Below, piece after piece: positions 3,802 through 21,540 of a DNA stretch of 21,540 nucleotides. The stretch spans positions 1 to 21,540 of the IMG/VR virus record IMGVR_UViG_3300003321_000203; one strand, given 5' to 3'. This DNA is from a virus. Within the stretch, counting starts at the first letter, position 1; every line of letters starts with the position of its first letter. The position numbers were made by a program, and so were the translations under genes. The notes below the pieces were generated by a model. It was given only the letters and a program-made list of their open reading frames with translations. It did no database searches and had not been told where the DNA came from.

Positions 3802-3825
3802 TCCCCCACTAAAAGGGGGCGGTTT
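3802..3825 (-). repeat. Start-site repeat, copy 4 (upstream of holin-like gene)
   Basis: On the minus strand this reads AAACCG then CCCCCTTTTAGTGGGGGA, immediately followed by the GTG start at 3801. It matches the other three copies except for CAGGGG changed to TGGGGG. The change keeps a 5-bp C/G stem around a TTTTAGT loop. It lies in the 36-nt gap between the Cys-rich lipoprotein gene and the holin-like gene. Confidence 0.85.
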
Positions 3826-3837
3826 CAGCCCTTGGAA

Positions 3838-4119
3838 CTACGGGGCGCAGGCGCCGTTCTGATACCAGACGAACCGGCCGACCAGTTCAGGGTGCAGCGG
3901 GCCGCCGTCCGGCGCATTCGGGCACGTCCCATCGACCGATTCGCTCGCGTAGCACGGCATTTGAGTCTCACAGGCCCAGCGCTGCCCGCCTATGCAGCGC
4001 TGTTCGGCGAGCTCGCTTTCGCAGCACGGGGCCTCCGGGCTCGGCGTGGAAGGGCACGTCGTCGGAACGATCGGGGCACCGCAACCGAAGAGCAGGATAG
4101 CGAGCGTGTAGGTTTTCAT
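3838..4119 (-). CDS. Small Cys-rich lipoprotein (93 aa), unknown function
   Basis: The chosen start is ATG 4119, with GGGGAAG upstream at good spacing. An in-frame ATG at 4158 lacks a ribosome binding site and would bury the signal peptide. The N-terminus is MKT plus a hydrophobic run and the lipobox LFGC (Cys13). The mature protein has eight more Cys (22, 32, 33, 42, 50, 56, 66, 91), so several disulfides are likely in the periplasm or at the outer surface. It follows the tail adhesin and precedes the lysis genes, so it may alter the host envelope (for example superinfection exclusion) or assist lysis. Both ideas are inference. No family was recognised. Confidence 0.7.
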   Translation of the reverse strand: MKTYTLAILLFGCGAPIVPTTCPSTPSPEAPCCESELAEQRCIGGQRWACETQMPCYASESVDGTCPNAPDGGPLHPELVGRFVWYQNGACAP

Positions 4120-4167
4120 GTTCTTCCCCGTAGACGTGTTTCCGCCCATATTATTCAAACCGGCCTT

Positions 4168-6876
4168 TCAGAGGAACGGGAAGAAGTTCAGACCGTCAAG
4201 CGACACGAAGGCGTTGTTTCCGACGAGCGGCGTGACGTTGCCGCTCGTGTCGATCTCCACCCGTCCGAACAGGTTGTTTGCAACCACCGCGAAGTTCACG
4301 TTCTGCGGTGGCGCGACGGGCAGCGTGAACGCCGTGAGGCCAATCGTCCCGCTCTTGATCAGACCCTTGAGCCAGATCCGCCCGTACCTGTCCCAACGAA
4401 ACGCGGCGGTTGTGTGCGTGCCGGCGTCGTAGTTAACCCAGGAATTCTGAAAGCCTGGAATGGCGTCGTACCGCTCTGTGAACTTCGTGGTCGTGCCGAT
4501 CTCGTACCAAGGCGACCCGACCCACTGCAGCCGAATTTCATCGACGTCGATCGTGTATGCAGACGTCCCGGTCGAGTTCGCGACGAGCGTAACCTGAGCC
4601 GAACGAACCGACGTCCCGCCGTCAACACGGCAGTAAAGATCGCTCTTGACCCAGTGTCCTTTTTTGACATTGCCGAGAACGGTGATCACCGAGCTCACCG
4701 TGACCGAAGACCCGGCGTAATCGTAGAGAGAAACGAAGATCTCGAGGGCCCCCGCGACCGTGTTCGCGGACGCGGCCTTCGTCCACACCGAGAAGCGATA
4801 GAGCTGAGACGTGCGATTCGCTTCGCCGGCTTCGTTGATGATGGGAATCATCGCCGATTGAATGTCGACGTTGCCCGAGACTTTGCCGTTCAACCGGAGG
4901 TACCGGCCTCCGCTGATCCCGTTTCCGTCCTCCATCACCTGAACGTCGGTCCCATATGTGCCGAAGCCGGGCACGATCGACCAGTGATCCGGCATCCCAG
5001 AGGTGTCGACGCGCGTCTCAAATCCGCCGTTCAGCGGGTAATCACCGAGAGCGATACCGTCGGTCAGGTGTCCCGATGAAGCCTGGCCTGCCACGAAGCT
5101 AATTTCGCGCGTCGGCTGACTCTTCACGAGTCGGCTTCGGTTGTGTCCGTACAGGACCGCCTTCGCGTAGTAGGTCTGACCTGGGATCAGCTCGCTGACC
5201 ACCACATCGTTCGAAGCGCCTTGCTTCTTCAGCGTCGAGCTCGACGGGGTGAACCCAGGCGACGCGCTGACGTGAATCTCGGCGTTCATGGGGAGTGCGC
5301 CTTTGGTTTCCGTCCCCGCTAACTGAAACCGAGCCCCACCAATCGCGGCGGAAGCCGTCATCGTAACGTTGTCACTGTTCGTCAGGTCGAGCGCGTGCTG
5401 ATCGCGATTCAGCTTGCTGTGCCACCGACGGAAGCCGGCGCTCGGCTTACCGCGGCAACCGATCGTCGTGCGCGCCTCTTTGTCGGTGATCTTGTGCGTG
5501 TACGACGTGACACCGAGCGACTGATCCGAGTCGTAGTGAATGCCGTCGGCCGTCCACTTGTAGTAGTCCCCGAGCTCGACGAACCGGAAAAGCGGCACGT
5601 CGCATTCGTGCTCCACCACGGGCGTCGCGAGATCCGAGATGACGTTGTCCGCGAGCGTATTCGCCTCGGTCGCGGAATCGATGTTCGACGTGCTCGCTTC
5701 GCCGATTTCGCAGAACCGACGCCCGTAGTTCGAAATGCTCGTCGCGTCGGTACGTACGACGGTCTTGCGAGTCGGCCTTCCGGCCGCGTCGAGAGCCGAG
5801 CTATCGCTGTACACGACCTGAACCGCGTTGCGAATGCCCGCGATCTGTATCGGGAGACGTGCGAGCTTGTACCGCTGCGACGGGCTGAACGTCCGATCGG
5901 GCGTGGATGCGCTTCGATTTGGGGCCTGGAATGTGAGCTTGAAGCTCGAGCTCCCGGCGTCGTACCTGAAACGAAGGTCCCAACCGATTTGGTCGACGAG
6001 CACACGAAGCGCATCCCAAACGCTCGTGCGGTCGGGCTTGTACGCCTTGATTGCCCAAGAAGGCGAAACGGGCACGTTCAGCGTGACGACGCCCGCGCCA
6101 AGGTTGTCGTCAATGATCTGCTGCATCACCGTCTCGACGGCGGTGCCGCTCGTGAGCGACGTCGACCCGCTTTCGGTCCACGTCACGCCACCGTCAACAA
6201 CCGTCGCGCCACCGCCCGTCGGCCAGGTCGGTTCGGTCGAGCCCGTGATGCCGGTCGTGATCGCCGTCGCACGATAGAAGTGCGAGTTCTTCGCGCCGTC
6301 AGTGGGGATGACCCGGTCTCCGACGGCGACGGTGTCGGTCGGTCGCCAGATGATACAGCCCTTCGTGGCGTTGACCCCCTGCGCCATTGCGTACACGCGC
6401 TCGCGCTCCATCCACGTGTCACGCAACTTCCCCTGCAGGTCGGAGCAGCGAAGCTTGACGTGTTCGCCTTCACCCGAATCGATCTCGTCGATGTACCCGT
6501 GAAATTGAAGGTTCCAGTCTCCTGAAGCGGGCGCGACGCCTTCGGGCATCATCGCGACTTCGATCTGAACCTCGCGGGCGAGCGCGAGAAGCGCCGAGTA
6601 GCTACCGGGATACGCGAACGCGAGGTTGACGGGGCTTCCGGCCATCAGCGGAGCGACCGAGATCTTCTCTACCTCGCGCTTCAGCGTGATGTCCGCATCC
6701 ATTCCTTGAGAGTCGATCGTTTCCTTCCACGTCGCCGAAACGCACATGTTCCGGCCCGCGTAGGTCGAGAGATCGCGGAACGTACCACCCGAATCTTTGA
6801 CCTTCGCGCGCCAGAAGACCGAACGGCCACCGGTTGCGGTAAGAATCTTGTCATCGGCGGTGCTGATCGTGCGCAT
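4168..6876 (-). CDS. Tail hub / receptor-binding tail protein (902 aa)
   Basis: It starts at ATG 6876 in TGATG with the preceding stop and a strong GAGGAGGT upstream. A longer reading of the frame beyond that ATG is not supported. The N-terminal part (about 1-480) resembles phage central tail or hub proteins, with an inserted strand-turn motif at 202-233 (TGITGSTEPTWP to DGGVTW) that recurs in phage tail proteins. Residues about 520-595 look like a fibronectin III domain (LIPGQTYYAKAVLYG). Residues 610-785 form a jelly-roll-like carbohydrate-binding domain (PLNGGFE to DVDEIRL). Residues 805-902 match a C-terminal module common in phage tail adhesins (GFQNSWVNY, GRIWLKGLIKSGTIG). I infer it caps the tail tip and carries host recognition. 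Confidence 0.82.
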   Translation of the reverse strand: MRTISTADDKILTATGGRSVFWRAKVKDSGGTFRDLSTYAGRNMCVSATWKETIDSQGMDADITLKREVEKISVAPLMAGSPVNLAFAYPGSYSALLALAREVQIEVAMMPEGVAPASGDWNLQFHGYIDEIDSGEGEHVKLRCSDLQGKLRDTWMERERVYAMAQGVNATKGCIIWRPTDTVAVGDRVIPTDGAKNSHFYRATAITTGITGSTEPTWPTGGGATVVDGGVTWTESGSTSLTSGTAVETVMQQIIDDNLGAGVVTLNVPVSPSWAIKAYKPDRTSVWDALRVLVDQIGWDLRFRYDAGSSSFKLTFQAPNRSASTPDRTFSPSQRYKLARLPIQIAGIRNAVQVVYSDSSALDAAGRPTRKTVVRTDATSISNYGRRFCEIGEASTSNIDSATEANTLADNVISDLATPVVEHECDVPLFRFVELGDYYKWTADGIHYDSDQSLGVTSYTHKITDKEARTTIGCRGKPSAGFRRWHSKLNRDQHALDLTNSDNVTMTASAAIGGARFQLAGTETKGALPMNAEIHVSASPGFTPSSSTLKKQGASNDVVVSELIPGQTYYAKAVLYGHNRSRLVKSQPTREISFVAGQASSGHLTDGIALGDYPLNGGFETRVDTSGMPDHWSIVPGFGTYGTDVQVMEDGNGISGGRYLRLNGKVSGNVDIQSAMIPIINEAGEANRTSQLYRFSVWTKAASANTVAGALEIFVSLYDYAGSSVTVSSVITVLGNVKKGHWVKSDLYCRVDGGTSVRSAQVTLVANSTGTSAYTIDVDEIRLQWVGSPWYEIGTTTKFTERYDAIPGFQNSWVNYDAGTHTTAAFRWDRYGRIWLKGLIKSGTIGLTAFTLPVAPPQNVNFAVVANNLFGRVEIDTSGNVTPLVGNNAFVSLDGLNFFPFL

Positions 6877-7688
6877 CAGACCTCCTCGAGCTCGGCGTCG
6901 ATGACGCGAATTGACTGGTAGTAGGTGCCGTTCAGATACCCGGGCATGACGTTGATGCCAGACACCCCGCCGCAACAGGTCTTCGTGACAAGGTTTGCGT
7001 CGATGAGGTCGCCGTCGCAGTCGAGGTAAGCGAGCTGAGAGAACGCGGCGCCGTACGCGACGACGCTCGCCGGCCACGAAGACGGAACCTCGTAGGGCAA
7101 AATCACAAGGTCATCGAGATTCGTCGTGCTCGCGGCGTCAGCATCGAGGGTCACCGTGCCGAGCGATGTGCTAGTGGTGAGCCAAGACGTCGCGTCGCTG
7201 GTCAACACACCACCGACGTAGGCTTGCGACCCAGCCTTCGTCGTGCTCGTCACGACGTAGTGGGTAAACGCCCCTGCGCCGACCTTGCGCCACACCATCA
7301 CCGTCCACTTCGTTCCGTTCGCAGGAAGAGCGGCATAACGAATCCGCCCAGAGCTCGCGGTCTGCTGCGCCCCACCCGCGCCATACTTCGAGGTCGCGTT
7401 GATCACCGTGTTGGTGAGAACAGACGGCCCAAGGCCCTTGCTGGAATAGAAGTGAGTATCGAAATTCCACGTGTGCCCGCGGCCGAGAATCAGTTCGCGC
7501 GTGGCGATCGCGTCAGTCGGGGACAGGTGCGCAACCTTGAACTTGTAGGTCTCCTTGAGAGCTCGACGGTTGATGAGCTTGGAGCCGTCTTCGGCGCGCT
7601 CATTCTCACCGATCTGCGACGTCTGATGAGACGCGCCGTCGGTGAGCACCGCGATCGGAATCCCGCTTATGCGAAGAATGTTCGCCAT
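6876..7688 (-). CDS. Distal-tail-like protein with LamG-like insert (270 aa)
   Basis: It is the first gene after the tape measure, where siphoviruses encode the distal tail protein. Residues 1-75 (MANILRISG to ATRELILGRGHTWNF) resemble a tail-tip beta domain. Residues about 80-210 look like a LamG or concanavalin-like domain (KYGAGG, TKWTVMVWRK, NLDDLVILPYEVPSSW), a fold that often binds carbohydrate or protein. The C-terminus returns to beta structure (YYQSIRVIDAELEEV). It starts at ATG 7688 and its stop is fused to the next start as TGATG. The distal-tail role rests on position more than on sequence. Confidence 0.7.
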   Translation of the reverse strand: MANILRISGIPIAVLTDGASHQTSQIGENERAEDGSKLINRRALKETYKFKVAHLSPTDAIATRELILGRGHTWNFDTHFYSSKGLGPSVLTNTVINATSKYGAGGAQQTASSGRIRYAALPANGTKWTVMVWRKVGAGAFTHYVVTSTTKAGSQAYVGGVLTSDATSWLTTSTSLGTVTLDADAASTTNLDDLVILPYEVPSSWPASVVAYGAAFSQLAYLDCDGDLIDANLVTKTCCGGVSGINVMPGYLNGTYYQSIRVIDAELEEV

Positions 7689-7690
7689 AG

Positions 7691-9904
7691 TCAGCGCCTA
7701 TCGTTGCTTCCGGTGGAGTCGTCGCTGTCCCCCGAGCTGCGATGATGGTTTCCGCCGCTCGAGCCGCTCGAGCCACCGCTTGACCCTGTGCTGTGGTTGC
7801 TGCTGCTCGCGGGGTTGCCGGTGATGCTTCCGGTCTGCAGGAATTGCTCGCGCTCCGCGTCATTCGACGCGTAGGACGCGCTCGAACCAACGGAAGAACT
7901 CATCGAGCCCGGCGACGTTGCGTTGAACTGAGCCAGTGCGACCTTAAAGCCCTGCGGGATGTTCAGCAGTTGCTCTGAGACTTTGTCTGCCGCGTCGCCG
8001 AGCTTTCCGACCTTCTCAGCCGCGTTCGCCGACTCGTCAGCGAGACCGTCATAGCCCTTCGACCACAGGTCGGTCATTTGCTTGAACACGTCGGCGCGCT
8101 TCATCTCCGCGTCGTGGTAAAGCTTCGCCGTCCCCGACGTGTCACCACCAAGAGACTTAATGATGTTGTAGATGACGCCGAGGATCGACATCCAGGCCGT
8201 CAGCAGACCGAACATGATTCCCAGCACGGTCTCACCGATGAACTTCATCACGAAGTTGATCGCGTCGAAGACGGGGGCCATGACCTGGCCAAGCATGTCG
8301 AAGAGCCCACCCAGGGCCTCAAAAGACATCGCAATCGGCGCGAGGATGGTCGAAATCAGACCGATCACGGGCGCGAGCTGCTGAAGAACCTTCCCGATGA
8401 TGTGAAAGATGGGGTTCAGAACCTGATGAATGACATGCGCAACCATGCCCACGGCGCCGATGAGAGGTCGCAGGCCGTTGACCAGATCATTGAAGCCGCT
8501 CGAGAGCTCCTGAATCGCGGTCATCACCTGACCGTTGCCGATGTCGATCAGCTCTTGAAACCGTTTGAACTTGGAGAAAAGCTCGATGAAGACGGCAATG
8601 ATTGCGCCCCAGATTCCGCCGTTCTGGAACCCTTGAATGCCTGCGTTGATGGTCTCGCCGAGACTACCGAGCTTCGACGCAAAGGCTGAGATCCCCGACT
8701 GCACCGCGCTACCAAGCTTGTCGAGCTGATCGTTAAAGACCTCGCGCATCTTCACTTCGCGGTCATACTCTTGCGAAACCTGCATGAGGCTTTCGGACAT
8801 CGACTTGTCCGTGTCTTCCTTGTAGTCCTCCTTGAACATCTCGTCATTCGAGACGCCCATGTCCTTCATCCAAGACTCGTTGGCCGTAATCGGCCCGTTC
8901 ATCTCGCCGATCCGATACTCGGGCGTGTTCGTGTGAACCGTTACCGCGCCCTGTTTGCCGGTGAAGCCGAGCGTCTTCTTCGTCCAATCGACCGCGTCGC
9001 CGAGCATCAGTTTCCACTCGTCGATCCCTTCGACGGTGTATTTCTTGACTTGATCTGCCGCGAGCTTGAGCGCGTCCCCCATCGCGCCGCCCTTCATGTC
9101 CTTCGACCACTTGTCAATCATTTCGTCGCTGGCATTGTTCGCTTGCTCGCGACTCGCGACGTTGACGGGGTTCTTCAAGAAGTTCATCGCGTGCGCGATG
9201 GATTTCTCGACGGCCGCCCATGCATCGATGAACCAGTCGAAGAAGTTCGTCGAAAGCCATTCCTTGAAGCTGTTCCAGTAACCAGAAATCGACTCGATGA
9301 CCGAGCGTGTCTTCTCTTGGATCCCGCCCCAGTTCTCACGCCATGCTTTGTGCAGCAGCGCGACGCCGACGAAGATTCCCGCGATGACGGCGCCGAACGC
9401 GAGCAGCGGAGTCATACCGAGCGCAACGGCGGCGCCCATAGCCTCGAAGGCCGGCATGAGAGTCGAGACGATGCCCGAGACCTTACCGATCGCGAGGGCC
9501 GCAACCCCGACCGCGGTCGCGATCTCAACCCAGTGCGCGATCTGCTGCTTCGTCTCAGGTGTCAGCGATTGCCACCAACCGAGCATCTCGCGCAGATGTA
9601 CGTTCATCTCGCGCAGGACCGGGACCATCATCGCCCCGATCTCGGTCGCGAACGTTGCGAAGATGTCTTTCGTTTGCCGAACCTGAGTGGCAACCGTGGC
9701 GTTGTGCTCAGCGGCTACGGCGAGCGCCGCCGCAATTCCGGCACCGATCGCAACACCCGCGCGACCGATCTCGTTTGCCGCGGCCTTGATCTTCCGAGAC
9801 ACCTTCTCGGCGATCTTGGCCGCATCCTCCATGCCCTTGCCGAACGCGGACGTCTGCGCGCTCAACATCACGTACAGATCGCCGACCTTCAAGCCACCGG
9901 ACAC
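7691..9904 (-). CDS. Tail tape measure protein (737 aa)
   Basis: It starts at GTG 9904, three nt after the chaperone frameshift product ends, with AAGGTG upstream. The sequence begins KVGDLYVMLSAQTSAFGKGM, a typical tape-measure N-terminus, then an Ala/Gly-rich hydrophobic helix (48-66), a larger hydrophobic region (127-183) and another in the last third. The C-terminal 45 residues are Ser/Gly/His-rich and low complexity. The protein would be threaded in the tail tube, set its length and help DNA entry. At about 0.15 nm per residue, 737 residues would give roughly 110 nm. No lysozyme or peptidase domain was recognised. Confidence 0.88.
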   Translation of the reverse strand: MSGGLKVGDLYVMLSAQTSAFGKGMEDAAKIAEKVSRKIKAAANEIGRAGVAIGAGIAAALAVAAEHNATVATQVRQTKDIFATFATEIGAMMVPVLREMNVHLREMLGWWQSLTPETKQQIAHWVEIATAVGVAALAIGKVSGIVSTLMPAFEAMGAAVALGMTPLLAFGAVIAGIFVGVALLHKAWRENWGGIQEKTRSVIESISGYWNSFKEWLSTNFFDWFIDAWAAVEKSIAHAMNFLKNPVNVASREQANNASDEMIDKWSKDMKGGAMGDALKLAADQVKKYTVEGIDEWKLMLGDAVDWTKKTLGFTGKQGAVTVHTNTPEYRIGEMNGPITANESWMKDMGVSNDEMFKEDYKEDTDKSMSESLMQVSQEYDREVKMREVFNDQLDKLGSAVQSGISAFASKLGSLGETINAGIQGFQNGGIWGAIIAVFIELFSKFKRFQELIDIGNGQVMTAIQELSSGFNDLVNGLRPLIGAVGMVAHVIHQVLNPIFHIIGKVLQQLAPVIGLISTILAPIAMSFEALGGLFDMLGQVMAPVFDAINFVMKFIGETVLGIMFGLLTAWMSILGVIYNIIKSLGGDTSGTAKLYHDAEMKRADVFKQMTDLWSKGYDGLADESANAAEKVGKLGDAADKVSEQLLNIPQGFKVALAQFNATSPGSMSSSVGSSASYASNDAEREQFLQTGSITGNPASSSNHSTGSSGGSSGSSGGNHHRSSGDSDDSTGSNDRR

Positions 9905-9907
9905 AGA

Positions 9908-10470: not shown

Positions 10471-10480
10471 ATGTTTCCTC

Positions 10481-11170: not shown

Positions 11171-11173
11171 CGC

Positions 11174-11611: not shown

Positions 11612-11625
11612 TCAATATTCTCCCG

Positions 11626-12060
11626 TTACGACGTGAAGCGACATTCGAGGCCGATGCTCCAACCGGGCTCGTCGTGGTCATCGCGACCGAGCGCTATGGG
11701 CTGCGCGTCGCGGAGCAGAACTGAGTAGTAGGGTGTGATCGAAGCCTTCTGAAGCTTGTCGGCTACCGACCTCGCGAACTGGAATCCCTCAAACGCTTTC
11801 TCGCGCTCGCCGCGCACGAGAATCGAGAGCTGAAGAATGTGATCGCTTCCACCGCTTCCGAAATAGGGCGCAGGAGACGGGCCGCCTGCTGATCGGACAT
11901 ACACGTGTGGCAACGTCACGGTCCCAGCTTCGTCCGAACCAAACTGGTTCGCGGGGACCTCTTCGCTGGCGAACAGATTCGTTCCGCGCGTGAGGCCGAG
12001 CCCCGCTCCCTCGAGAAAGGTCGCGACGTCGGTCGGCGCGTCTGGAATTGAGAGAGCCAT
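11626..12060 (-). CDS. Tail-terminator / minor capsid-like head-tail joining protein (144 aa)
   Basis: It starts at ATG 12060, overlapping the upstream stop as TAATG. The sequence has an N-terminal helix region (DAPTDVATFLEGAGLGLTRG), LPHVYVRSAGG, a segment HILQLSILVRGEREKAFEGF, then ARSVADKLQKA and a C-terminal GWSIGLECRFTS. This order fits tail terminator or minor capsid proteins that cap the tail tube and bind the neck. It lies between the gp10-like and tube genes, exactly where such proteins occur. Confidence 0.72.
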   Translation of the reverse strand: MALSIPDAPTDVATFLEGAGLGLTRGTNLFASEEVPANQFGSDEAGTVTLPHVYVRSAGGPSPAPYFGSGGSDHILQLSILVRGEREKAFEGFQFARSVADKLQKASITPYYSVLLRDAQPIALGRDDHDEPGWSIGLECRFTS

Positions 12061-12443
12061 TAGTCGATGGCACCTCTCACAACCTGAGCCATTCGCTGCG
12101 AGAACTCAGGTCCCATCTGATTCGCGGCCGTCTGAAGCCAAAACTGATTCGGGGTCTTCCGCTTCTTGCCGAAGTGAAAGCCCTCATGAACCGCGGCGGC
12201 GTAAGGTGCTTCGTAACCCATCGTTGCAATGGGGTTGCCGTGGTCACTAAGGCCGGCCGAGACGAACGAAGAAGCCTTCAGTTCGCCACTTTCAACCGGC
12301 ACTTCCGCGTTGGCTATGATCTCAAGCCGCGCGGCCTCGGCCCTCAGCGCGCCGACGAGGGTGGGCTTAATCCGCTCGAAGATCTTTTCGACGTTCGAAC
12401 GAAATGCACCCGCGTCAAATTTGACTTCGGCGGCGTCGCCCAT
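12060..12443 (-). CDS. HK97 gp10-like head-tail joining protein (127 aa)
   Basis: The family pattern is clear: an N-terminal helix (DAGAFRSNVEKIFERI), a second helix, EVPVESGELKASSF at residues 47-60 and YEAPYAAAVHEGFHFG at about 77-92, then a C-terminal helix. Proteins of this family sit at the neck or tail completion stage. Its ATG (12443) lies inside the start-site repeat, with AGGGG only one nt from the start codon. It is the first gene of a block running on to the tail tube. Confidence 0.85.
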   Translation of the reverse strand: MGDAAEVKFDAGAFRSNVEKIFERIKPTLVGALRAEAARLEIIANAEVPVESGELKASSFVSAGLSDHGNPIATMGYEAPYAAAVHEGFHFGKKRKTPNQFWLQTAANQMGPEFSQRMAQVVRGAID

Positions 12444-12467
12444 TCCCCTGCTAAAAGGGGGCGGTTT
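12444..12467 (-). repeat. Start-site repeat, copy 3 (upstream of gp10-like gene)
   Basis: The minus strand reads AAACCG then CCCCCTTTTAGCAGGGGA, directly followed by ATGGGC. Identity with the protease copy extends through ATGGG (12439-12467). The copy occupies most of the 36-nt gap after the beta-rich unknown gene. Confidence 0.9.
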
Positions 12468-12479
12468 CGGCCGACGGCT

Positions 12480-13654: not shown

Positions 13655-13657
13655 GCG

Positions 13658-13900: not shown

Positions 13901-13906
13901 GCTTCC

Positions 13907-14827
13907 TCAGGTGATTGAACTGTAGACCGCGAGATATCCGAGGCTCGAACCGCTGGCGTCGAAAACTTGAATCTTCTTCACGACACTCCCCGGCGTGGTC
14001 GCGCTCGCGCTGTTTCCAACCCCGATGCCTCCTGGCGCCAGAAACTTACCGCTCGTCGTAACACACCCTACGACGTTCGTTTGATTGTCTCTATAGAAAA
14101 CGTGTGAATACCGATCGTCACCCGCAGATATCGTGTTTCCGTTACACGAGGCGGCGCAGATTGCACCGGCGCCATCCGACGCGTTTCCAAAGAGCCTCGA
14201 TGGCGTCCCACCATTGCCTGTTGCAAAGTAGCCGGTGTTGCTCCAAACAGTCAGCCCGGCTCTCAGCGTGCTCGCGGCCGCAAGATCCCCAGCTGCTGTA
14301 ATTTTTCCACTTCCATCACTCGTCAGATAATCAGTAGTACCGCCGCCAATCTTCCAGCGCGCACCGGTTGCCGCCGCAAAAGCATTGCTTCCGGAAGCGA
14401 TCGAAGAGATCACCGAACCCGTGAAAGTTTTATCTCCGCCGATCGTCTGAGTGCCGGCCGTCAGCGCCCCGGGTTGTGTGCCTGAAGCCGGCTGAAGTGT
14501 GAGCACCTGACCGTTAAGTGACGCGCCGTTCGCATTCGGGCTCGACCCGACCGCTCCAAGCGTCACGTCACCGGTGTTGGTGCCTAAAACCGCATCAAGT
14601 TTCGCTTTGTCCGCACCGGACATCGCTCCGGCCGACCCGGAAGCGATAGCTACGGCCAGCGAAATCACTTGGCCATTCAACGAAAGCCCGTTCGCGGTAC
14701 CAATCGAGACGTTGCCGGTGTTCGTACCGGTGATCGCGTCCAGCTTCGTCTTGTCGGCCGCCGACATGAGGCCGCGGAGCGACGGGGACGCGTCTTGCGG
14801 CGGTGCCGGAATCGGTTGCGAGCTCAT
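13907..14827 (-). CDS. Fibre-like protein with internal repeats (306 aa), head or neck fibre candidate
   Basis: The best start is ATG 14827, in an ATGA overlap with the connector gene; a TTG at 14836 is an inferior alternative. Residues 18-57 and 67-110 are tandem repeats with the pattern GxMSxADKxKLDAxxGTNTGxV and SLNGQVxxL. A segment PGALTAGTQTIGGDKTFTG follows (about 119-137). These motifs are typical of phage tail-fibre and collar proteins. The remainder is Gly/Ser/Ala-rich with a beta C-terminus (KIQVFDASGSSLGYLAVYSS). Its location among head-tail connector genes, far from the tail-tip genes, suggests a capsid or neck fibre. Confidence 0.75.
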   Translation of the reverse strand: MSSQPIPAPPQDASPSLRGLMSAADKTKLDAITGTNTGNVSIGTANGLSLNGQVISLAVAIASGSAGAMSGADKAKLDAVLGTNTGDVTLGAVGSSPNANGASLNGQVLTLQPASGTQPGALTAGTQTIGGDKTFTGSVISSIASGSNAFAAATGARWKIGGGTTDYLTSDGSGKITAAGDLAAASTLRAGLTVWSNTGYFATGNGGTPSRLFGNASDGAGAICAASCNGNTISAGDDRYSHVFYRDNQTNVVGCVTTSGKFLAPGGIGVGNSASATTPGSVVKKIQVFDASGSSLGYLAVYSSIT

Positions 14828-15498
14828 ACCGTCCAACTCATCTTGTAGGGAGCGAGAAGAGCTCGTGCGTACGCCGGAATAACCTGTTCAGCTGTCTTTG
14901 AGTCGAAGAAGCTGATCGACCAGTCGCCGATCGCCTCACTCTTCACGTTCGGATCGACTCCGCGGAGCCTGAGAAGGCCGCACGCGGTCTGGATCGCGGC
15001 CTCTTGCACGACATACGGGAGGGTCACGCTCGGATAGGTCACCGAGTCGAGCGCGTTCTGACCAGGCGTCACGAAGCCGCCCGTGTACGTCGCGACAATC
15101 TTGTCCGACTGCCCGTACGAACCTGCGATCTGATCGGACACCGCGAACGAGTCGGCGCGTTGAGTCGAGCACCAAACACCGTTCTTGCGGAGCACGAGCC
15201 CGGTGTCGGCGTTCGCGCCAACACTCTCGTAGTTCGAAGAATCGACGGTTCCGTTTGCCTCGACGATTGAGGTGATTGAAACGATGGGCGCACGCTTCAG
15301 AATCAAGAACGGTCGGCCGGAGCTCTCAGGGTACTCGACCAAACCCGAGGCGCGCTCGAACGTTCGCGCGCAGTGGTTCGCAATCGCCTGCGATGCGGCC
15401 GAGACCGCACGTTGAACGCGGTCGTCTGAGGACACACCGAGGTCGCTCGCGACGTCGGACGCCAAACACAGATCGTATGCTTGCGGCGAAAGTGACAT
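14824..15498 (-). CDS. gp6-like head-tail connector/adaptor protein (224 aa)
   Basis: It starts at ATG 15498 with GAGGACGG just upstream. The first 60 residues show the adaptor pattern: a short helix (YDLCLASDVASDLGV), then DDRVQRAVSAASQAIANHCARTFER, followed by strands (ILKRAPIVSITSIV). A middle beta region (VATYTGGFVTPGQ) and a C-terminal helical part (YVVQEAAIQTACGLLRLRG, PAYARALLAPYK) follow. Such proteins bind below the portal ring and close the head. The gene follows a strong terminator-like hairpin, so its expression may depend on read-through or a separate signal. Confidence 0.8.
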   Translation of the reverse strand: MSLSPQAYDLCLASDVASDLGVSSDDRVQRAVSAASQAIANHCARTFERASGLVEYPESSGRPFLILKRAPIVSITSIVEANGTVDSSNYESVGANADTGLVLRKNGVWCSTQRADSFAVSDQIAGSYGQSDKIVATYTGGFVTPGQNALDSVTYPSVTLPYVVQEAAIQTACGLLRLRGVDPNVKSEAIGDWSISFFDSKTAEQVIPAYARALLAPYKMSWTV

Positions 15499-15500
15499 CC

Positions 15501-15548
15501 GTCCTCAAAAGAAACGCGGCCGGTCGCCGGTTTCCCGACGCCGGCCGC
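15501..15548 (-). terminator. Strong hairpin with T-rich tail, intrinsic terminator
   Basis: On the minus strand GCGGCCGGCGTCGG and CCGGCGACCGGCCGC pair around a GAAA tetraloop (15516-15548). The stem has about 14 bp with one bulged A and one G-T pair. The tail is GTTTCTTTT. It lies right after the putative decoration protein gene and overlaps the ribosome binding region of the connector gene only at its tail end. Confidence 0.8.
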
Positions 15549-15571
15549 AAGCGCGCTGCTGATTTAGACCG

Positions 15572-16039
15572 TTACGCCGAGCGAGTAACGGGCTGCGAGG
15601 TGTTGTACATGCTTCCGCCGAGCACAAACACAGCAGTGATCTCCGCGACGTCGGTGCCAGAAGCGGTGTGATCGGGCGTATACTTCACACGGACAAACGA
15701 CTTCTGTTGAGTGAAGTCGATGTCGAGCTCGTACTGACCGTACTGATCACCGGTACCCGTCACAAGATCCACGGTCGCGGCGAGCTGTTCGACGTCAGTC
15801 GAGTAGGTCGAGTTGTCGTCGGAGTAGGCCAGCTTGACCGAAGTCAGAGTCAGCTTCTTGGCGGCGGTGTTATTCGCATGCGCGGCGATCACCAACTTGC
15901 CGGAGCCGAATCCACGGCGGTCGCAGCCCGTCCCGGTAACTTCGGTAGCGTCGCCGGTACCCGCGGCGGTGAGTCTCGACCCGGCGACACAGGTCGTCTT
16001 GATTTCCGCGCCCACGTTTGCAGTTTTAGGATCAGACAT
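15572..16039 (-). CDS. Putative head decoration/structural protein (155 aa)
   Basis: It starts at ATG 16039 with AAGGA 8 nt upstream and follows the major capsid gene. The product is beta-rich with no signal peptide: LTLTSVKLAYSDDNSTYS, then LVTGTGDQYGQYELDIDF and FVRVKYTPDHTASGTDVAEI, ending AVFVLGGSMYNTS. The last part resembles small phage capsid-associated proteins encoded next to the capsid gene. It is bracketed by a hairpin upstream and a strong terminator downstream, consistent with a separately tuned, abundant product. Decoration of the capsid is an inference from position and composition. Confidence 0.7.
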   Translation of the reverse strand: MSDPKTANVGAEIKTTCVAGSRLTAAGTGDATEVTGTGCDRRGFGSGKLVIAAHANNTAAKKLTLTSVKLAYSDDNSTYSTDVEQLAATVDLVTGTGDQYGQYELDIDFTQQKSFVRVKYTPDHTASGTDVAEITAVFVLGGSMYNTSQPVTRSA

Positions 16040-16054
16040 TTGTTGTTTCCTTGT

Positions 16055-16091
16055 AAAAGTTGAATAGGGCGACCGAAGCTAGCCGCCCTAC
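16055..16091 (-). terminator. Hairpin between capsid and decoration genes
   Basis: The minus strand GTAGGGCG (16084-16091) pairs with CGCCCTAT (16064-16071) around a 12-nt loop. It is followed after 4-5 nt by a weak CTTTT tract, and then by the ribosome binding site of the decoration gene. This could be a partial terminator, an RNA-processing or stability element. The U-tract is weaker than at 15501-15548. Confidence 0.5.
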
Positions 16092-16101
16092 TCAGTCAGG
16101 T

Positions 16102-17448
16102 TTAGTTGCCCCAGGTCACGTTGTAGACGCGGGCACCGCTCACGTTGTGACGAAGACCGATGTCGACCTCTTTGAGCAACCGAATCACCGTCTGGTCGGT
16201 CGAGATTCCAGAAACAACCGTACCGCTGTTGTTAGTGTAGGCGCCGTTGGGGAAGACTTCGGCCTCAACCGACATGGCGTCGAGGATGATGACCTCGCTC
16301 ATGTCGAAGAAGAGCAGATCGGACTGACCGTTTGAGTTGCTCGTCTCACCGTTCGCCAGCGTGAGACCACCCGTCTCGCTGATCTGGTTCGTGATGAAGA
16401 ACTTCTTCCCGCGAATTGTTCCGCGGGCATTCCACTCGTTCTCGAGCATGTTCGAGCCGTCGCCGCTCGAAGCAACGGCGTCGAGGATCGCGGCCTTGGG
16501 GGACGGCGAGGTGAAGATTGCAACGTCGTCCATTGGCGCGTTGGCAAGCTCCATCTTCTTCAGCGCCTTGTCGATCTCCTGCTTCATCTCGAGCACGGTT
16601 GGCTTGCCGGCAACACCGAGTGCGGTCATCGCGTACTTCATGCTAGACGCAAGCTGAAGCGCGATGCCGCGCGGCTTACCTGACGTGCCGGGACCGTAAA
16701 GAAACTGAAGATCCTCTTCGAGGGCGACGACCTGAAGCAGATCATTGAGCACGAACTGATCGGCGCTGATGCTCGCATTTCGAATCAGGTCGTTAGGAAC
16801 CGGGCACTGTGCGGCCAGCTTCTTCGCCGTGAGAGCGAGCGGCTGTGAAGTCGTCGGATTGCTGTTCGTGACCGCCGTAGTCTCACCGACCCAATAGGCG
16901 GTACCGGCAGCAGCCTGCCCGTCGAACTGGAGACGCTGCCCGCCGCTAATGGCGCGTGCACCGGCTTTGCGCACAACCGACTTGTTCCGCAGAAGCTCAA
17001 TGAAGTCACCGGACCACTCGGGGCGAACCATAGACCCCATACCGGCGAACGCGCCGCTCGAGAGGGCCTTCGCAAACTCACCGTATCCCATACCGGGCGA
17101 GCGCTCGTTCCAGCCCTTGACCACATCAAGAATCGGCTTCCGGTCGAGCTCAGAAGCAGCCTTCGCCTTGATGAAGCGAACGAAGGCAAGCCCTTTGTGC
17201 TTCTCGAACGCAGGGGCACCAACCTGGACATCGGTCGGTTGAGCGGGCGTAGACCGATGGCCCTGAACCCCGCCCATGATCTCGGTCAAGATCTCGTCTT
17301 TGAGAGCCTTACGCTCGGCTTCCTTCGCTGCCTTCTCGGCCTCGAGCTTCGCCTTCAAATCAGCTTCGGCTTTCGCCTGAGCCTGCATCGCGACGAGTGC
17401 GGCGGCGGTCGCGTCCGCCTTGATCTTAGCGATCTCTTCCTGATTCAC
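16102..17448 (-). CDS. Major capsid protein, HK97 fold (448 aa)
   Basis: It starts at GTG 17448, overlapping the protease stop as GTGA, with GGAG 8 nt upstream. Residues 1-60 are a charged Ala/Glu/Lys-rich coiled coil typical of the scaffolding delta domain that the protease removes. The mature part has the HK97 pattern: GMGSMVRPEWSGDFIELL at 136-153, AYWVGETTAVTNS at 184-196, LTAKKLAAQCPVPNDLIRNAS, then LNDLLQVVALEEDLQFLYG and GTSGKPRGI (254-262). It forms the icosahedral shell. The delta domain being in the same polypeptide explains the absence of a separate scaffold gene. Confidence 0.92.
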   Translation of the reverse strand: MNQEEIAKIKADATAAALVAMQAQAKAEADLKAKLEAEKAAKEAERKALKDEILTEIMGGVQGHRSTPAQPTDVQVGAPAFEKHKGLAFVRFIKAKAASELDRKPILDVVKGWNERSPGMGYGEFAKALSSGAFAGMGSMVRPEWSGDFIELLRNKSVVRKAGARAISGGQRLQFDGQAAAGTAYWVGETTAVTNSNPTTSQPLALTAKKLAAQCPVPNDLIRNASISADQFVLNDLLQVVALEEDLQFLYGPGTSGKPRGIALQLASSMKYAMTALGVAGKPTVLEMKQEIDKALKKMELANAPMDDVAIFTSPSPKAAILDAVASSGDGSNMLENEWNARGTIRGKKFFITNQISETGGLTLANGETSNSNGQSDLLFFDMSEVIILDAMSVEAEVFPNGAYTNNSGTVVSGISTDQTVIRLLKEVDIGLRHNVSGARVYNVTWGN

Positions 17449-18131
17449 TTGGTAGCTCCGTTAGACTCGAGGAGATTGAGAGCACGAGCCGCAATCGCCT
17501 CGATCGATGCGGTATGTTCGGACTGAGACTTTTTGCGCACGTCTCTGTCGTCGAGCGCCTTCACGACGATCTGCGCGGCGCGAAGCGCGATCTTCTCGAT
17601 GAGTTCAGCCGCTTCGCCTTCGAAACCCTTCACGCGCAGTGCGCGTTGGTTCCCTGGAATCGTGACGATCGAGATCTCGAGCAGGTCTTGAACGGTCGAA
17701 TCAAGACCGCCCTTCTCGTTCTCAACGTAAGAGCCTTCGGGAATCGCGTAGCGAACCGAAACCGCGTTCAAAAACCCGTCTGCGACCTTTTGCTCAACCT
17801 GACGTGCGAAAGCGTCCTTCTGATCAAACTGAACATCAACGTAGAGTGCGTTCCCGTCGACGTACGCGCGACCCTTACCGATCGGAAGCACATCTTTCCG
17901 CCCGAGACCGAGAAAGCCGCCGTCGCCGGCCTCGTGATTATACAGGATGACAGGATTGGCGTTGAAAGACGAGAGTTGCCACCCCCCGACGCTCAACCGG
18001 TCCTGATAGCGGTCGAACTCGCCGTCGTTTGCGCGAAACGTGTACGTCTTTGGCTGATCTGACAGCGTACCGGGTGTAGTTTTGACTTTCTCAAAGCCAA
18101 AACTGCGTGTACGTTGAACCGATCCGCCCAT
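17445..18131 (-). CDS. Prohead protease, HK97 type (228 aa)
   Basis: Residues 50-160 carry the family signature: GWQLSSFNANPVILYNHE with His66, then GKGRAYVDGNALYVDVQF, a helix KDAFARQVEQKVADGF and LNAVSVRY with Ser125, followed by LLEISIVTIPGN (151-161). His66 and Ser125 fit the catalytic pair of this serine protease. It cleaves the capsid delta domain during head maturation. The ATG (18131) lies in the start-site repeat. The last 50 residues are charged and helical. Confidence 0.9.
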   Translation of the reverse strand: MGGSVQRTRSFGFEKVKTTPGTLSDQPKTYTFRANDGEFDRYQDRLSVGGWQLSSFNANPVILYNHEAGDGGFLGLGRKDVLPIGKGRAYVDGNALYVDVQFDQKDAFARQVEQKVADGFLNAVSVRYAIPEGSYVENEKGGLDSTVQDLLEISIVTIPGNQRALRVKGFEGEAAELIEKIALRAAQIVVKALDDRDVRKKSQSEHTASIEAIAARALNLLESNGATK

Positions 18132-18155
18132 TCCCCTGCTAAAAGGGGGCGGTTT
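18132..18155 (-). repeat. Start-site repeat, copy 2 (upstream of protease)
   Basis: The minus strand reads AAACCG then CCCCCTTTTAGCAGGGGA, followed by ATGGGC. It is identical to copy 3 over 29 nt (18127-18155, including ATGGG). It fills most of the 34-nt gap between portal and protease genes. Confidence 0.9.
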
Positions 18156-18165
18156 TTACAAGTGG

Positions 18166-19575
18166 TCAGAGCCCTGCGCCTGCCCAAGGCGGATCGCTTG
18201 GTGAAGTCTTCGCATTGGACGGCTGGTTCTGCTCTTCGATCGTGTCAGCTTCGGACCCCTGACTCGCATCGGGAGTCGTCGGCTGCTTCTCCGTCTGCCC
18301 CGGCATTGGGGCGAGATAGCCTTTCAACGCGGGGTCCGGCCTCTTCCCGGCGAGCTCTCGAGCTTCGTTGTAGGTGAATGCGGTCGGGAAGGTCCCCATC
18401 ACGCGCAGTTCATGCTCTCGATCCTCGGGAATCGGGGACGCATAATCGAGGAAATCCCCTTCGGACCCAAGCCGAGGCATCAGTCTGAACTGGAATTCAG
18501 ACCTGAGAAACTCCGCACGGGGCACAATGCAGTTCTTCGCAAGCGAATCGTGCGCCGCCCATGCGGTTCCCTTACTCGAGCTCGTCAGGTCGCCGACGAT
18601 CTCGGGCGCGACACGCCAGTTCATGCGCACGAAGTCATTGACGCCCTTACGCAGAGCGCGAAGGTCCATTTTCTGGAAGTCGGTATCGAGCCTGGACACT
18701 GAAGTCTTACCTCCGGTGATCAGAACGTTGCCGGCGCGATCCGGGCCTTGATGATTCTTAGTCAACTCCTCTTTGAACTTCTTCGCGGCTGGCGTTTCGC
18801 CGTTAGTCATGCCTTCAATCGCGATCACCGCGGCCGGAATCGTGTTGTTGTAGAAGTAGTTCTTCGCGAACCGCGCCGCATACTCGTCTGTGTCGAGCTC
18901 GTCGCCGAGCGTGAAGCCTTTCCCGACGCCGCGGCCCATCGGATCCGCAGGGTCCGGGTGCCTGATATGGAGCATTCGATCTGGCGGAACCTGCCCGGAC
19001 ACCCGCCCAAAGTTGATGAGATAGAACTGCTCATCGGTCGGACGCATGAAGTCGGGGAGGTTCGTGACCGCGCTCGGGGGCAGTGGCCAGAATCCGACGG
19101 GCATCTTGCCCATAAGATCCAGCGGAAGAAACGATTCACCAACCAGATCAAGGTGAATCTGCATCAGCTTCATTGTCTGCCGCCCGGTCAAATGATCGTT
19201 CGGGCTTTCGAGAAGCTTCAGCATCGGGTGACCGGGCACCTCGACGACCTCACCACCGTCGACGAGCGCTTTCAGCGCTTCGCGCCGCGTCGATCCGAGA
19301 CTCCGTGAGGGAATGACGGGCATTCGCATCGCGGCGGCGAGTTTCGCTACCGACCTTGGCCCGGCGACCGGCCGATAGACACACCACTCGAGATCCGCGA
19401 CCCCGTCGGCCGTCACATCGACCAGGGTGTTGAGCCACGGCATCATCTTGTAGGCCGCGAGCAGCTCGGGCGTACCCTTTCGTATTGGTGCCGAGGCCCA
19501 GCGGCTCACCGCGAAGTCGGTCGCGGGTTGGCTGGACACCGTGAACAACCCTTTGACTCGATTCCACAAACCCAT
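18166..19575 (-). CDS. Portal protein (469 aa)
   Basis: The start is ATG 19575 with GAGGTGG 2 nt before it; a GTG two codons earlier lies inside that ribosome binding site and is less likely. The product shows portal features: KMMPWLNTLVDVTADGVADLEW near the N-terminus, a DPADPMGRGVGKG loop, a YAARFAKNYFYNNTIPAAVI stretch, KTSVSRLDTDFQKMDL and WRVAPEIVGDLTSSSKGTAW. The C-terminal 45 residues are Pro/Gln/Ser-rich and disordered. Twelve copies would form the ring through which DNA is packaged. The order terminase, portal, protease, capsid is standard for HK97-like phages. Confidence 0.9.
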   Translation of the reverse strand: MGLWNRVKGLFTVSSQPATDFAVSRWASAPIRKGTPELLAAYKMMPWLNTLVDVTADGVADLEWCVYRPVAGPRSVAKLAAAMRMPVIPSRSLGSTRREALKALVDGGEVVEVPGHPMLKLLESPNDHLTGRQTMKLMQIHLDLVGESFLPLDLMGKMPVGFWPLPPSAVTNLPDFMRPTDEQFYLINFGRVSGQVPPDRMLHIRHPDPADPMGRGVGKGFTLGDELDTDEYAARFAKNYFYNNTIPAAVIAIEGMTNGETPAAKKFKEELTKNHQGPDRAGNVLITGGKTSVSRLDTDFQKMDLRALRKGVNDFVRMNWRVAPEIVGDLTSSSKGTAWAAHDSLAKNCIVPRAEFLRSEFQFRLMPRLGSEGDFLDYASPIPEDREHELRVMGTFPTAFTYNEARELAGKRPDPALKGYLAPMPGQTEKQPTTPDASQGSEADTIEEQNQPSNAKTSPSDPPWAGAGL

Positions 19576-19586
19576 AACCACCTCTT

Positions 19587-21050
19587 TCAGAAAGCGAAGA
19601 ACTGATCGGCAAACACGAGCTCGTGAACGCCCCAGTTCATGGCGTCCGCGCGGTCGTCTCTGCGACCATTAACCCCGGTAAATTTCTCGAGTTGCTTCTC
19701 GAGCTTCGGAAACGTGACGAGCTTCGGCGTCATGCCCCCTTCGTTGTCGTCAAACGTCGGGCCGACGAACTCGATCCGCCCAGTCTCCGCGAGCGCACTC
19801 ACCGGCTCGGCGCGCTTGCTCTTTTGCTCACGAGCTCGAACCGACTTCACGTTGACGTAAACACCGAGCTCTGCCGCGACGGTCTGAATGATCGTTTCGA
19901 CCATCTCACCGCCGCTGTTCACCTCGCATACGAGAGTGTCGCACTTGAAATCAAAGTACGTCTGAATCGCGGCGAGCGCACCGGCTCGCGGCGACCCGTG
20001 AACAGACCGGTCGGCGAGAATCGAAACACGTTTCAGCGGCATGCCGTCAGGGCCGATCAGCGCCGAATTCTTCACGCCTTGGGCGATGATTCCCCACTCG
20101 TCGGAGCCAACTTCACTCGTCGGCGCGGGGTCGACCGAAACGATCCGTCGATCAAGCGTCATCGCGTACGTCAACGGGTCAGCGTCGACACGGCCCCACT
20201 TCGCCGAGCCGAAGATCGCGCCCGGCACATCCATCAGAAGCTGACCGAGAACCTCTTGCTTCCCCCATCGGGTGTTCGCGAGGTTCCGCATGTTCGCAAT
20301 TGTGGTCGGTGCAAGGAACGCCGCGTTCGCGAGGCTCGAGCCCGTGACGAGCGCCGTCGTCGGGTCTTTCATCAACGCTTCGAGCTTCTTCAGCGGCTTC
20401 GGCGTCGTCGTCAGCAGCGTTTGCGGTGGTGACTCCTTGGTTCCGATGCGATTGAACATCGGAATCTGATCAAGCGCGGCCATTTCATGCTTCCAGGTCA
20501 CAGGCTCGTCGCCCCAGACCCACGAAGTGTTCGTCCCACGAAGACGATCGGGCTTGTCCGCCGAGTAGCAAAGCGCAACGGCGCCGTTCGGCCAGGTCAA
20601 GCGCCGCTTCGACGGCTCGTACTTCGGCATGAACCATGGCGGTGACAGTGAAAGAATCCCGCTCGGGCCGCGGATCATCGTGTCGCGGACGTCGGCCGCG
20701 GTAGGTCCGATCAGCGCACCTACGCCTTTGTTCTCACGCGCCTTGCCGATCGACCAGCGCGATCCCATGTATGTCTTGCCGAATCCACGTCCCGCGAGCG
20801 CAAGACACACCGTCCAAAGCCAATTTGGCGGGATTTGCTGTCGCCGTGCCCAGAAATCGAGGCTGAAAACGATCGCTTCGACGTCCGCTTGCGTCAGACC
20901 ATCGAAGAAGCGCACGAGTTCGTCGCGCGTCTTGATCGTCGCGGCGATCCTACTGGCGATCGACTCTTCGGGTCCGAGTGAAGCGGCGAGCGCATCGAAG
21001 CCGAGATGTTTAGGGACCGGCCGATCCCATTTCTCAGACGCCGGGGGCAT
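19587..21050 (-). CDS. Terminase large subunit, ATPase and nuclease (487 aa)
   Basis: It starts at ATG 21050, overlapping the small terminase gene by 17 nt, with AGGAAA upstream. The ATPase half has Walker A AGRGFGKT (86-93), Walker B VWGDEP (178-183) and the coupling motif LLTTTPKP (212-219). The nuclease half has IVSVDPAP with Asp307, VCEVNSGG with Glu376 and DDRADA with Asp466 and Asp469. The length and motif order fit a full-length enzyme. It pumps DNA through the portal and cuts the concatemer. Whether packaging is cos or headful cannot be told from the sequence. Confidence 0.93.
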   Translation of the reverse strand: MPPASEKWDRPVPKHLGFDALAASLGPEESIASRIAATIKTRDELVRFFDGLTQADVEAIVFSLDFWARRQQIPPNWLWTVCLALAGRGFGKTYMGSRWSIGKARENKGVGALIGPTAADVRDTMIRGPSGILSLSPPWFMPKYEPSKRRLTWPNGAVALCYSADKPDRLRGTNTSWVWGDEPVTWKHEMAALDQIPMFNRIGTKESPPQTLLTTTPKPLKKLEALMKDPTTALVTGSSLANAAFLAPTTIANMRNLANTRWGKQEVLGQLLMDVPGAIFGSAKWGRVDADPLTYAMTLDRRIVSVDPAPTSEVGSDEWGIIAQGVKNSALIGPDGMPLKRVSILADRSVHGSPRAGALAAIQTYFDFKCDTLVCEVNSGGEMVETIIQTVAAELGVYVNVKSVRAREQKSKRAEPVSALAETGRIEFVGPTFDDNEGGMTPKLVTFPKLEKQLEKFTGVNGRRDDRADAMNWGVHELVFADQFFAF

Positions 21051-21513
21051 TCGGCGTTTCCTGGGGTGATTTTTCCGTCGCGGGCGGCTCGGTGGGTGGT
21101 GCCTGCGGTAACAACCGCTCGAAACGCTCCATGAGCAATTGCATCGTGGCTTGCTCTTGCGCCGCGCGATCCTCTGCGGAAACGATCTCGTAGTTGTCGT
21201 GCCGCCCGAAGAGCTCAGGGTGACGACGCGAGAGCGCCCACTGCAACACCTTCGGGTCCGAAGGCCCGTGAGCGATCATCGTGTCGAAACACGCGGCAAC
21301 GAAATCCGACTCGGCCTTGTTTACGTCCCGAAGAAATTCGAAGTAGATGCCTTTAGTTTCCTTTGCACCTTTCGCGTACCACTCCGAAACCATCGCCTCG
21401 GTGAGGCCAACTTGCGCCGCCGCCATGGGGCGGTGCATTCCCTTGCGAAGCAAGTCGCAGAACTGTTTCTGCAGTGCTTTAAGCGCCTTCGGCGGCCGAC
21501 CGACCAGACCCAT
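21034..21513 (-). CDS. Terminase small subunit (159 aa)
   Basis: An N-terminal helix-turn-helix (GRPPKALKALQKQFCDLL, then AAAQVGLTEAMVSEWYAKG at 31-49) is followed by helices (FLRDVNKAESDFVAACF), a segment PKVLQWALSRRHPELFG typical of phage small terminases, and a Pro/Glu-rich tail. It recognises the packaging site and regulates the large subunit. Its ATG (21513) lies within the start-site repeat at the window edge. The stop lies inside the large terminase gene, implying coupling. Confidence 0.87.
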   Translation of the reverse strand: MGLVGRPPKALKALQKQFCDLLRKGMHRPMAAAQVGLTEAMVSEWYAKGAKETKGIYFEFLRDVNKAESDFVAACFDTMIAHGPSDPKVLQWALSRRHPELFGRHDNYEIVSAEDRAAQEQATMQLLMERFERLLPQAPPTEPPATEKSPQETPNAPGV

Positions 21514-21536
21514 TCCCTGCTAAAAGGGGGCGGTTT
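21514..21536 (-). repeat. Start-site repeat, copy 1 (upstream of terS)
   Basis: The minus strand reads AAACCG then CCCCCTTTTAGCAGGGA, followed by ATGGG. It lacks one G of the AGGGGA block found in copies 2 and 3, so the stem is one pair shorter. The sequence further upstream is outside the window. Confidence 0.88.
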
Positions 21537-21540
21537 CGGC

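Follow-up and report, generated by a model that had tools for sequence, protein, structure and literature searches.

Start-codon-proximal repeats of a tailed phage are probable promoters for a divergent phage-encoded sigma factor

A repeated element heads four units of a phage late region

The locus described here raises the question of why nearly the same short sequence recurs immediately ahead of four genes, each of which is the first gene of a packaging, head, tail, or lysis-like unit. The window (the whole stretch of DNA analyzed), a linear virus record 21,540 bases in length, holds an HK97-type tailed-phage late region, with genes in the order terS, terL, portal, protease, major head protein, adaptor, neck, tail tube, and tape measure. 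The genes relevant to this report are as follows.

21034-21513, minus strand: terS (phrog_4102, 6e-15), opens unit 1
19587-21050, minus strand: terL (phrog_979, 7e-17), unit 1
18166-19575, minus strand: portal (phrog_2662, 1.5e-43), unit 1
17445-18131, minus strand: head maturation protease (phrog_80, 6.8e-16), opens unit 2
16102-17448, minus strand: major head protein (phrog_617, 3.6e-38), unit 2
14824-15498, minus strand: adaptor, unit 2, to which other genes also belong
12060-12443, minus strand: neck/tail-completion gene (phrog_5, 4.8e-9), opens unit 3
Unit 3, after the neck gene: tail tube, tape measure, and other tail genes, with matches to a major tail protein (phrog_1407) and a tape measure (phrog_305)
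3556-3801, minus strand: holin-like gene of 81 aa, from the open reading frame list and the sequence, opens unit 4

The 81-aa gene has no PHROG match and is called holin-like solely because of a hydrophobic stretch. Each of the four unit-opening genes is preceded by one copy of the element; the number in parentheses is the distance from the C of the -10-like hexamer to the start codon.

21515-21540, minus strand: copy 1 (terS), -10-like CTTTTA at 21526-21521, ATG at 21513 (+13)
18140-18165, minus strand: copy 2 (head protease), CCA at 18165-18163, AAAA block, -10-like CTTTTA at 18145-18140, ATG at 18131 (+14)
12452-12477, minus strand: copy 3 (neck/tail-completion), CCG at 12477-12475, GAAA block, -10-like CTTTTA at 12457-12452, ATG at 12443 (+14)
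3810-3835, minus strand: copy 4 (holin-like gene), CCA at 3835-3833, GAAA block, -10-like CTTTTA at 3815-3810, GTG at 3801 (+14)

The initial annotation had reported four copies ending at start codons, and all of them were found. All four lie on the minus strand, in the same orientation as the gene that follows. No other repeat in the window is nearly as strong, and a search of the window that permitted up to three mismatches returned no others. The protease and neck copies share 31 identical nucleotides, the holin-like copy differs by a change of CA to TG, and the terS copy lacks one G, which reduces the distance from TTTTAG to the start codon to 6 nt from the 7 nt seen in the other three. 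The terS copy is also truncated, as the contig stops 14 nt upstream of its CTT, and the protease copy includes a -35-like TGACCA at 18168-18163. The repeat had been viewed as a 24-nt unit. This unit is real, but it constitutes the 3′ part of a larger element, in which CCA or CCG is conserved 20 nt upstream of CTT. No sigma-70-type promoter matches were found on the coding strand between window positions 2500 and 21540.

The gaps containing the three fully visible copies measure 34, 36, and 36 nt, in agreement with the 34-36 nt noted earlier. The accompanying statement that most other junctions overlap holds only in part, given a 62-nt gap after the major head protein and a 73-nt gap before the adaptor. 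These two larger gaps (16040-16101 and 15499-15571, minus strand) lack the element and carry hairpin-like inverted repeats, which might act as attenuators or in RNA processing. A gene at 1212-2162 (minus strand), located after the lysis-like genes, resembles an exonuclease subunit of DNA polymerase (phrog_403, 5e-103). Its best matches, at 49%, are from Pseudomonas phages; the phage is otherwise without close relatives in the phage collection.

Close relatives carry homologous elements before structural and replication genes

When IMG/VR and 84,980 genomes were scanned for the exact motif, no true copies were found outside the window. A single 17-mer match in contig L005 was rejected, as the rest of the element is missing and such a match is no more than chance would yield in a collection of this size. 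A search with the portal protein returned no relatives, and a search with TerL as a single query returned relatives at only 35-44% identity, in which the element is absent. When TerL was instead aligned with three relatives (42-45% identity) and the alignment was used as the query, approximately 20 new contigs (L012-L032) were recovered whose TerL proteins are 62-67% identical. Several of these bear taxon-style identifiers, which we take to denote isolate genomes.

The elements of these close relatives are homologous but not identical to those of the window, whose copies have the form ...GAAACCGCCCCCTT-TTAG. The corresponding forms are ...GCGGAAAGYGTCCCCAT-AAAG or -TGAAG in group A, ...CCAAAACCGCACACAT-TTAG in group B, ...AAAACGYGCCCCCAT-TTAG in group C, and ...GTTGCCCCCAT-TGAAG in group D. 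A weight matrix built from these elements detected copies on both strands, numbering about 6-8 in the majority of the longer records from group A. Elements scoring at least 14 bits are present, in 1-7 copies each, in 20 of the 21 close relatives, and the remaining one (L030, a 6.7-kb fragment) has none. The 82 distant TerL relatives hold two isolated matches in total, and 0.8 Mb of shuffled sequence gave zero matches. One strong match (21 bits, AGCCACTCGTCAAAATCGTCCTTATATGG) lies at L070:6205 (minus strand) in a distant TerL relative that has no second copy and no detectable sigma homologue.

In relatives represented by whole or long contigs, elements precede terS, the protease gene, the neck gene, a VapE-type primase-helicase gene, a PD-(D/E)XK nuclease unit (with an extra gene in front in some records), a unit comprising a 176-aa gene and DNA polymerase A, a methyltransferase unit, and a short operon that includes a sigma factor gene. 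The elements lie in sense with their downstream genes on both strands, the replication genes being on the opposite strand. This placement before unit-opening genes on both strands is as expected of promoters that head transcription units. The proposal of a phage-wide signal at packaging, head, tail-completion, and lysis blocks is therefore supported, and the relatives extend this signal to replication genes. Absence of the element before the homologous genes of all relatives, which had been named as the result that would speak against such a signal, was looked for and did not occur.

The element is an extended conserved block at a near-fixed distance from start codons

Alignment of 55 nonredundant copies on the C of CAT produced the consensus R-CCA-N3-GC-N-RAAA-N-YG-Y-CCCCAT-WNA. 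The conserved span extends from about -23 to +6 and includes R at -21, CCA at -20 to -18, GC at -14/-13, RAAA at -11 to -8, YG at -6/-5, YCCCCAT at -4 to +2, and A at +5. No conservation is evident upstream of -24 in this alignment, and purine richness is the sole feature downstream of the element. The RRCCA and CATNNA sequences are 17 nt apart, and the bases of the spacer between them are conserved as well. No TTGAAA-type -35 sequence is conserved upstream, where positions -40 to -24 are without conservation. CCCCAT is near-invariant in many relatives and is close to the sigma-32 -10 sequence CCCCATWT, but the match in the window is just partial (CCCCCTTTTA). The window hexamer, CTTTTA, has T at the second position, where relatives usually have A (CATNNA).

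In most copies, the start codon begins at +11 to +17 from the C of CAT. An ATG or GTG that opens a frame of at least 60 codons occurs at +9 to +20 for 86% of 91 copies, versus 15% of random positions. Exceptions are the copies that precede the 176-aa gene upstream of DNA polymerase, which are separated from the start of that gene by 59 nt; thus, the element needs no adjoining start codon.

Two additional features were observed next to elements. After the element of the 176-aa/DNA polymerase unit, where no long frame begins at the usual place, there is a conserved leader, AGGACGTCCTYTCGACGTCCC, with repeated GACGTCC (G001:C1 21102-21161, G003:C1 23363 and 25333, G006:C1 26396, G011:C1 21738, and L013:719 on the minus strand). 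This leader is possibly an operator or an RNA leader. The other feature was seen in groups B and C, in which the neck element comes directly after a GC-rich hairpin and the T-containing stretch that follows it.

A divergent sigma factor gene accompanies the element in close relatives

Every close relative whose sequence covers the region upstream of terS carries a divergent sigma factor gene there. The 230-aa gene at this location matches Pfam Sigma70_r2 (3e-9), matches region 4 weakly, and matches the PHROG annotation "RNA polymerase sigma factor." Sigma70_r2 is matched by all nine of the aligned homologues, and a profile built from the homologues matches RpoS domain 4 (1.5e-15) and SigA domain 2 (7e-11) in the PDB. 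An AlphaFold2 model of the protein has a mean pLDDT of 78, a low-confidence linker, and a pTM of 0.45. The best Foldseek matches of this model are sigma subunits, including sigma-32 (8hkc), with low TM-scores, as would be expected of two domains that have no fixed relative orientation.

The presence of the element follows that of the sigma gene, as can be seen by comparing the 20 of 21 close relatives that carry elements with the two isolated matches among the 82 distant loci, in which no sigma homologue was detected. A separate search used two subalignments of the nine homologues as queries. Two records fetched through the sigma protein alone, L128 and L130, have 4 and 6 elements, respectively; both were left out of matrix building and thus constitute an independent test. 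We infer that the phage represented by the window carries its own sigma gene just beyond the contig end.

The copies within a genome also change together. Copies from different genes of one genome are 85.5% identical (positions -14 to +6), whereas copies from the same gene in different groups are 64% identical (0.643 versus 0.855), a difference reached by none of 5,000 label permutations. Such likeness within genomes is as expected for sites that share one diverging reader. The sigma proteins themselves are 27-40% identical between groups, and the group A and G003 proteins are approximately 41% identical.

Proposed function of the element

Based on these sequence comparisons, we conclude that the repeats are probably promoters of a phage-encoded sigma factor, rather than ribosome-binding or recombination sites. 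The element is an asymmetric block with fixed spacing, and its GCCCCCATTTA portion is close to the sigma-32-type -10 sequence CCCCATWT with a C-rich extended -10 (PMC6687850). In the proposed mechanism, the phage sigma factor, encoded just upstream of terS, would direct host RNA polymerase to about eight promoters of nearly the same sequence, such that each lytic transcription unit has one at its 5′ end. RRCCA, within -23 to -18 from the C of CAT, would serve as the -35 region, and CATNNA (CTTTTA in the window) as the -10 hexamer. The 17-nt spacer between them would include the conserved RAAA and the C-rich extended -10.

With a promoter of this kind, the transcription start is predicted to lie about 12 nt downstream from the C of CAT. 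Because this position coincides with the start codon (+11 to +17), the mRNAs may be leaderless or nearly so, with at most about 5 nt between the 5′ end and the start codon. Alternatively, transcription could start a few nucleotides earlier, with the purine-rich start regions serving as ribosome-binding sequences. The pairing of sigma factor with element, the start sites, and the leaderless translation are all predictions from the patterns described above.

Several observations count against parts of this proposal. The conserved RAAA in the spacer is unusual for a sigma-70-family promoter, and the window contig both ends before the expected sigma gene and has T in its -10 sequence. Moreover, the group A and G003 sigma proteins adjoin the same motif despite their modest identity, and thus recognition residues are not yet tied to motif variants. 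For the leaderless view in particular, the start region is purine-rich and Shine-Dalgarno-like, which would be superfluous for a strictly leaderless mRNA.

If the proposal is correct, an unexplained repeat becomes a defined regulon, with a divergent, unstudied sigma factor, a promoter consensus, and target units in prophages and virus contigs, including isolate-derived records. The groups CCCCCTTTTAG, CACACATTTAG, CCCCCATTTAG, and TCCCCATAAAG, together with their sigma proteins, would form a natural data set for the coevolution of sigma factors and promoters. Promoters at start codons also raise the question of leaderless translation of virion genes, and the gaps upstream of the promoters resemble landing sites for antiphage defense genes. 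We speculate, with somewhat less than even confidence, that one phage sigma factor drives nearly the whole lytic program through promoters fused to start codons, that key mRNAs are leaderless, that sigma factor and promoter diverge together as lock and key, and that defense genes occupy the gaps.

Alternative explanations for the element

Of the three mechanisms suggested in the initial annotation, binding of a phage regulator fits best, the regulator being the sigma factor; control of translation is disfavored, and the idea of a recombination boundary is half right. One alternative is that the promoters are read by a host sigma factor, such as a heat-shock factor of the sigma-32 type. The near-consensus -10 sequence (CCCCATWT; PMC6687850) is in keeping with this possibility, but we consider it unlikely given that the TTGAAA-type -35 is absent, positions -40 to -24 are unconserved, and CAT is missing from the window copy. 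Concerted divergence between phage groups is likewise hard to square with a conserved host factor, and the presence of the element tracks the phage sigma gene. Another phage DNA-binding regulator, either a repressor or an activator, might instead use the elements as operators on overlapping promoters. Such a role could account for an uninterrupted block of about 23 bp in which the spacer bases are conserved too and which recurs at every transcription unit and changes in concert within a genome. Nonetheless, the element is nonpalindromic and is always in sense with the downstream gene at a near-fixed distance from its start, and no separate promoter was seen. The regulator conserved in all relatives is the sigma factor, and an operator would add a second factor where the first suffices. 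We regard this explanation as quite improbable. Promoters for a single-subunit RNA polymerase of the T7 type, composed of a recognition block, an AT-rich melting stretch, and a purine start, would account for a contiguous block of at least 23 bp, the AT-rich 4 nt after the C-run, and the purine-rich sequence downstream. We judge this to be very unlikely. The annotated replication-side genes of G011 and its relatives, which are a subset of the open reading frames, encode VapE primase-helicase, PD-(D/E)XK nuclease, helicase, DNA polymerase A, methyltransferase, RuvC-like, and integrase proteins but no such polymerase, and the conserved sigma factor would be left unexplained.

Given their close register with the start codon, the elements might also act in translation, as a start-codon RNA hairpin or an extended ribosome-binding sequence. 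Start-associated sequences of cluster K mycobacteriophages provide a precedent (PMC3203893), and a CCCCU/AGGGG hairpin is possible beside the AUG in the window. The hairpin was dropped as a candidate, since CACAC replaces CCCCC in group B and a 4-bp stem could form in just 21 of the 73 distinct copies. In addition, three of the four copies in the window have unremarkable folding z-scores, the G-run is unconserved, the conserved part precedes the mRNA start predicted by the -10 sequence, and the copies before the 176-aa gene are 59 nt away from its start. A role in translation thus seems highly doubtful. Least probable of all, in our estimation only barely credible, is that the elements are module-recombination boundaries with no role in expression. 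Eight prophages of group A were compared. In the sequence that immediately precedes the protease and neck elements, identity falls to chance level (0.27 and 0.29), compared to 0.80-0.83 for the elements and 0.85-0.88 for the gene starts, and unrelated cargo genes are found upstream of both. However, the sequence upstream of terS is conserved as well in the same prophages (0.86), copies vary by group in concert, elements also front genes that have no adjoining cargo, as in the window, and neither the near-fixed distance to start codons nor the link to the sigma gene would be explained. The drop in identity ahead of the protease and neck elements is best explained by the insertion of cargo genes in front of a promoter that has to remain with its module.

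Comparison with known systems

SPO1 gp28 and T4 gp55 are phage-encoded sigma factors with their own promoters. Promoters for the sigma factors of phiEco32 and phage 7-11 are described as well conserved and low in copy number (PMC4331800). The system described herein likewise pairs a phage sigma factor with a motif that is well conserved, present in few copies, and placed ahead of gene clusters, late genes among them (PMC4331800). It differs in its sequence and in its setting, namely prophages and contigs of approximately 20-38 kb whose late genes are of the HK97 type. In addition, a single type of element serves replication as well as structural units, and most start codons follow it by 11-17 nt.

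The start-associated sequences of cluster K mycobacteriophages are 13 bp long (GGGATAGGAGCCC), have an AGGAG ribosome-binding core, lie 3-7 bp from the start codon, and are confined to the nonstructural half of the genome (PMC3203893). The function of these repeats is unsettled (PMC3203893, PMC12699233). Like these sequences and their extended counterparts (ESAS), the present elements are short, asymmetric repeats at start codons, mostly in one orientation and rare outside their clade (PMC3203893). In contrast to GGGATAGGAGCCC, they are unrelated in sequence, precede the structural units that begin with terS, protease, and neck genes, and require no AGGAG core. Heat-shock promoters of sigma-32 (RpoH) have a similar C-rich extended -10 with a CCCCATWT core (PMC6687850), to which many relatives come close and the window only in part, but a TTGAAA -35 is replaced here by the -35-like RRCCA with its 17-nt spacer to CATNNA. 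T7-like promoters also consist of uninterrupted, nearly identical sites, about 23 bp long, ahead of gene blocks, but the present relatives have a sigma factor and, among their annotated genes, no single-subunit RNA polymerase. The element resembles start-associated sequences in appearance and phage sigma promoters in its apparent mode of action, and membership in the latter class is supported in the relatives. A limited literature search found no published description of this pair of sigma factor and promoter.

Cargo genes adjoining the elements

In the prophages, unrelated cargo genes are located directly upstream of the protease, neck, and 176-aa-gene elements, and several of these are defense-like. 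They encode PARIS AriA/AriB, SduA, a caspase domain, a RelA/SpoT-domain protein (PDC-S33), DUF4062, Mrr, Schlafen AlbA_2, RES, and a DisA-type domain. Cargo loci are found at the following locations.

L018:17600-19904
L130:16589-17764
L114:4532-6010
L126:127-1167
L016:12801-13826
L017:12704-13609
L015:17228-18004
L112:4044-5270
L031:12766-14574

It is possible that the gaps upstream of the elements are antiphage defense hotspots bounded by sigma promoters. Other arrangements were observed in single records. In G006 (C1, 8487-11851), the protease gene appears to be split by an insertion of about 2.6 kb that carries a 527-aa and two small open reading frames with the look of a transposase set, and the element and the first part of the gene are on its far side. 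In L012 (18378-18490), about 19 copies of the hexamer GTGCGA lie between a cargo gene and the neck element.
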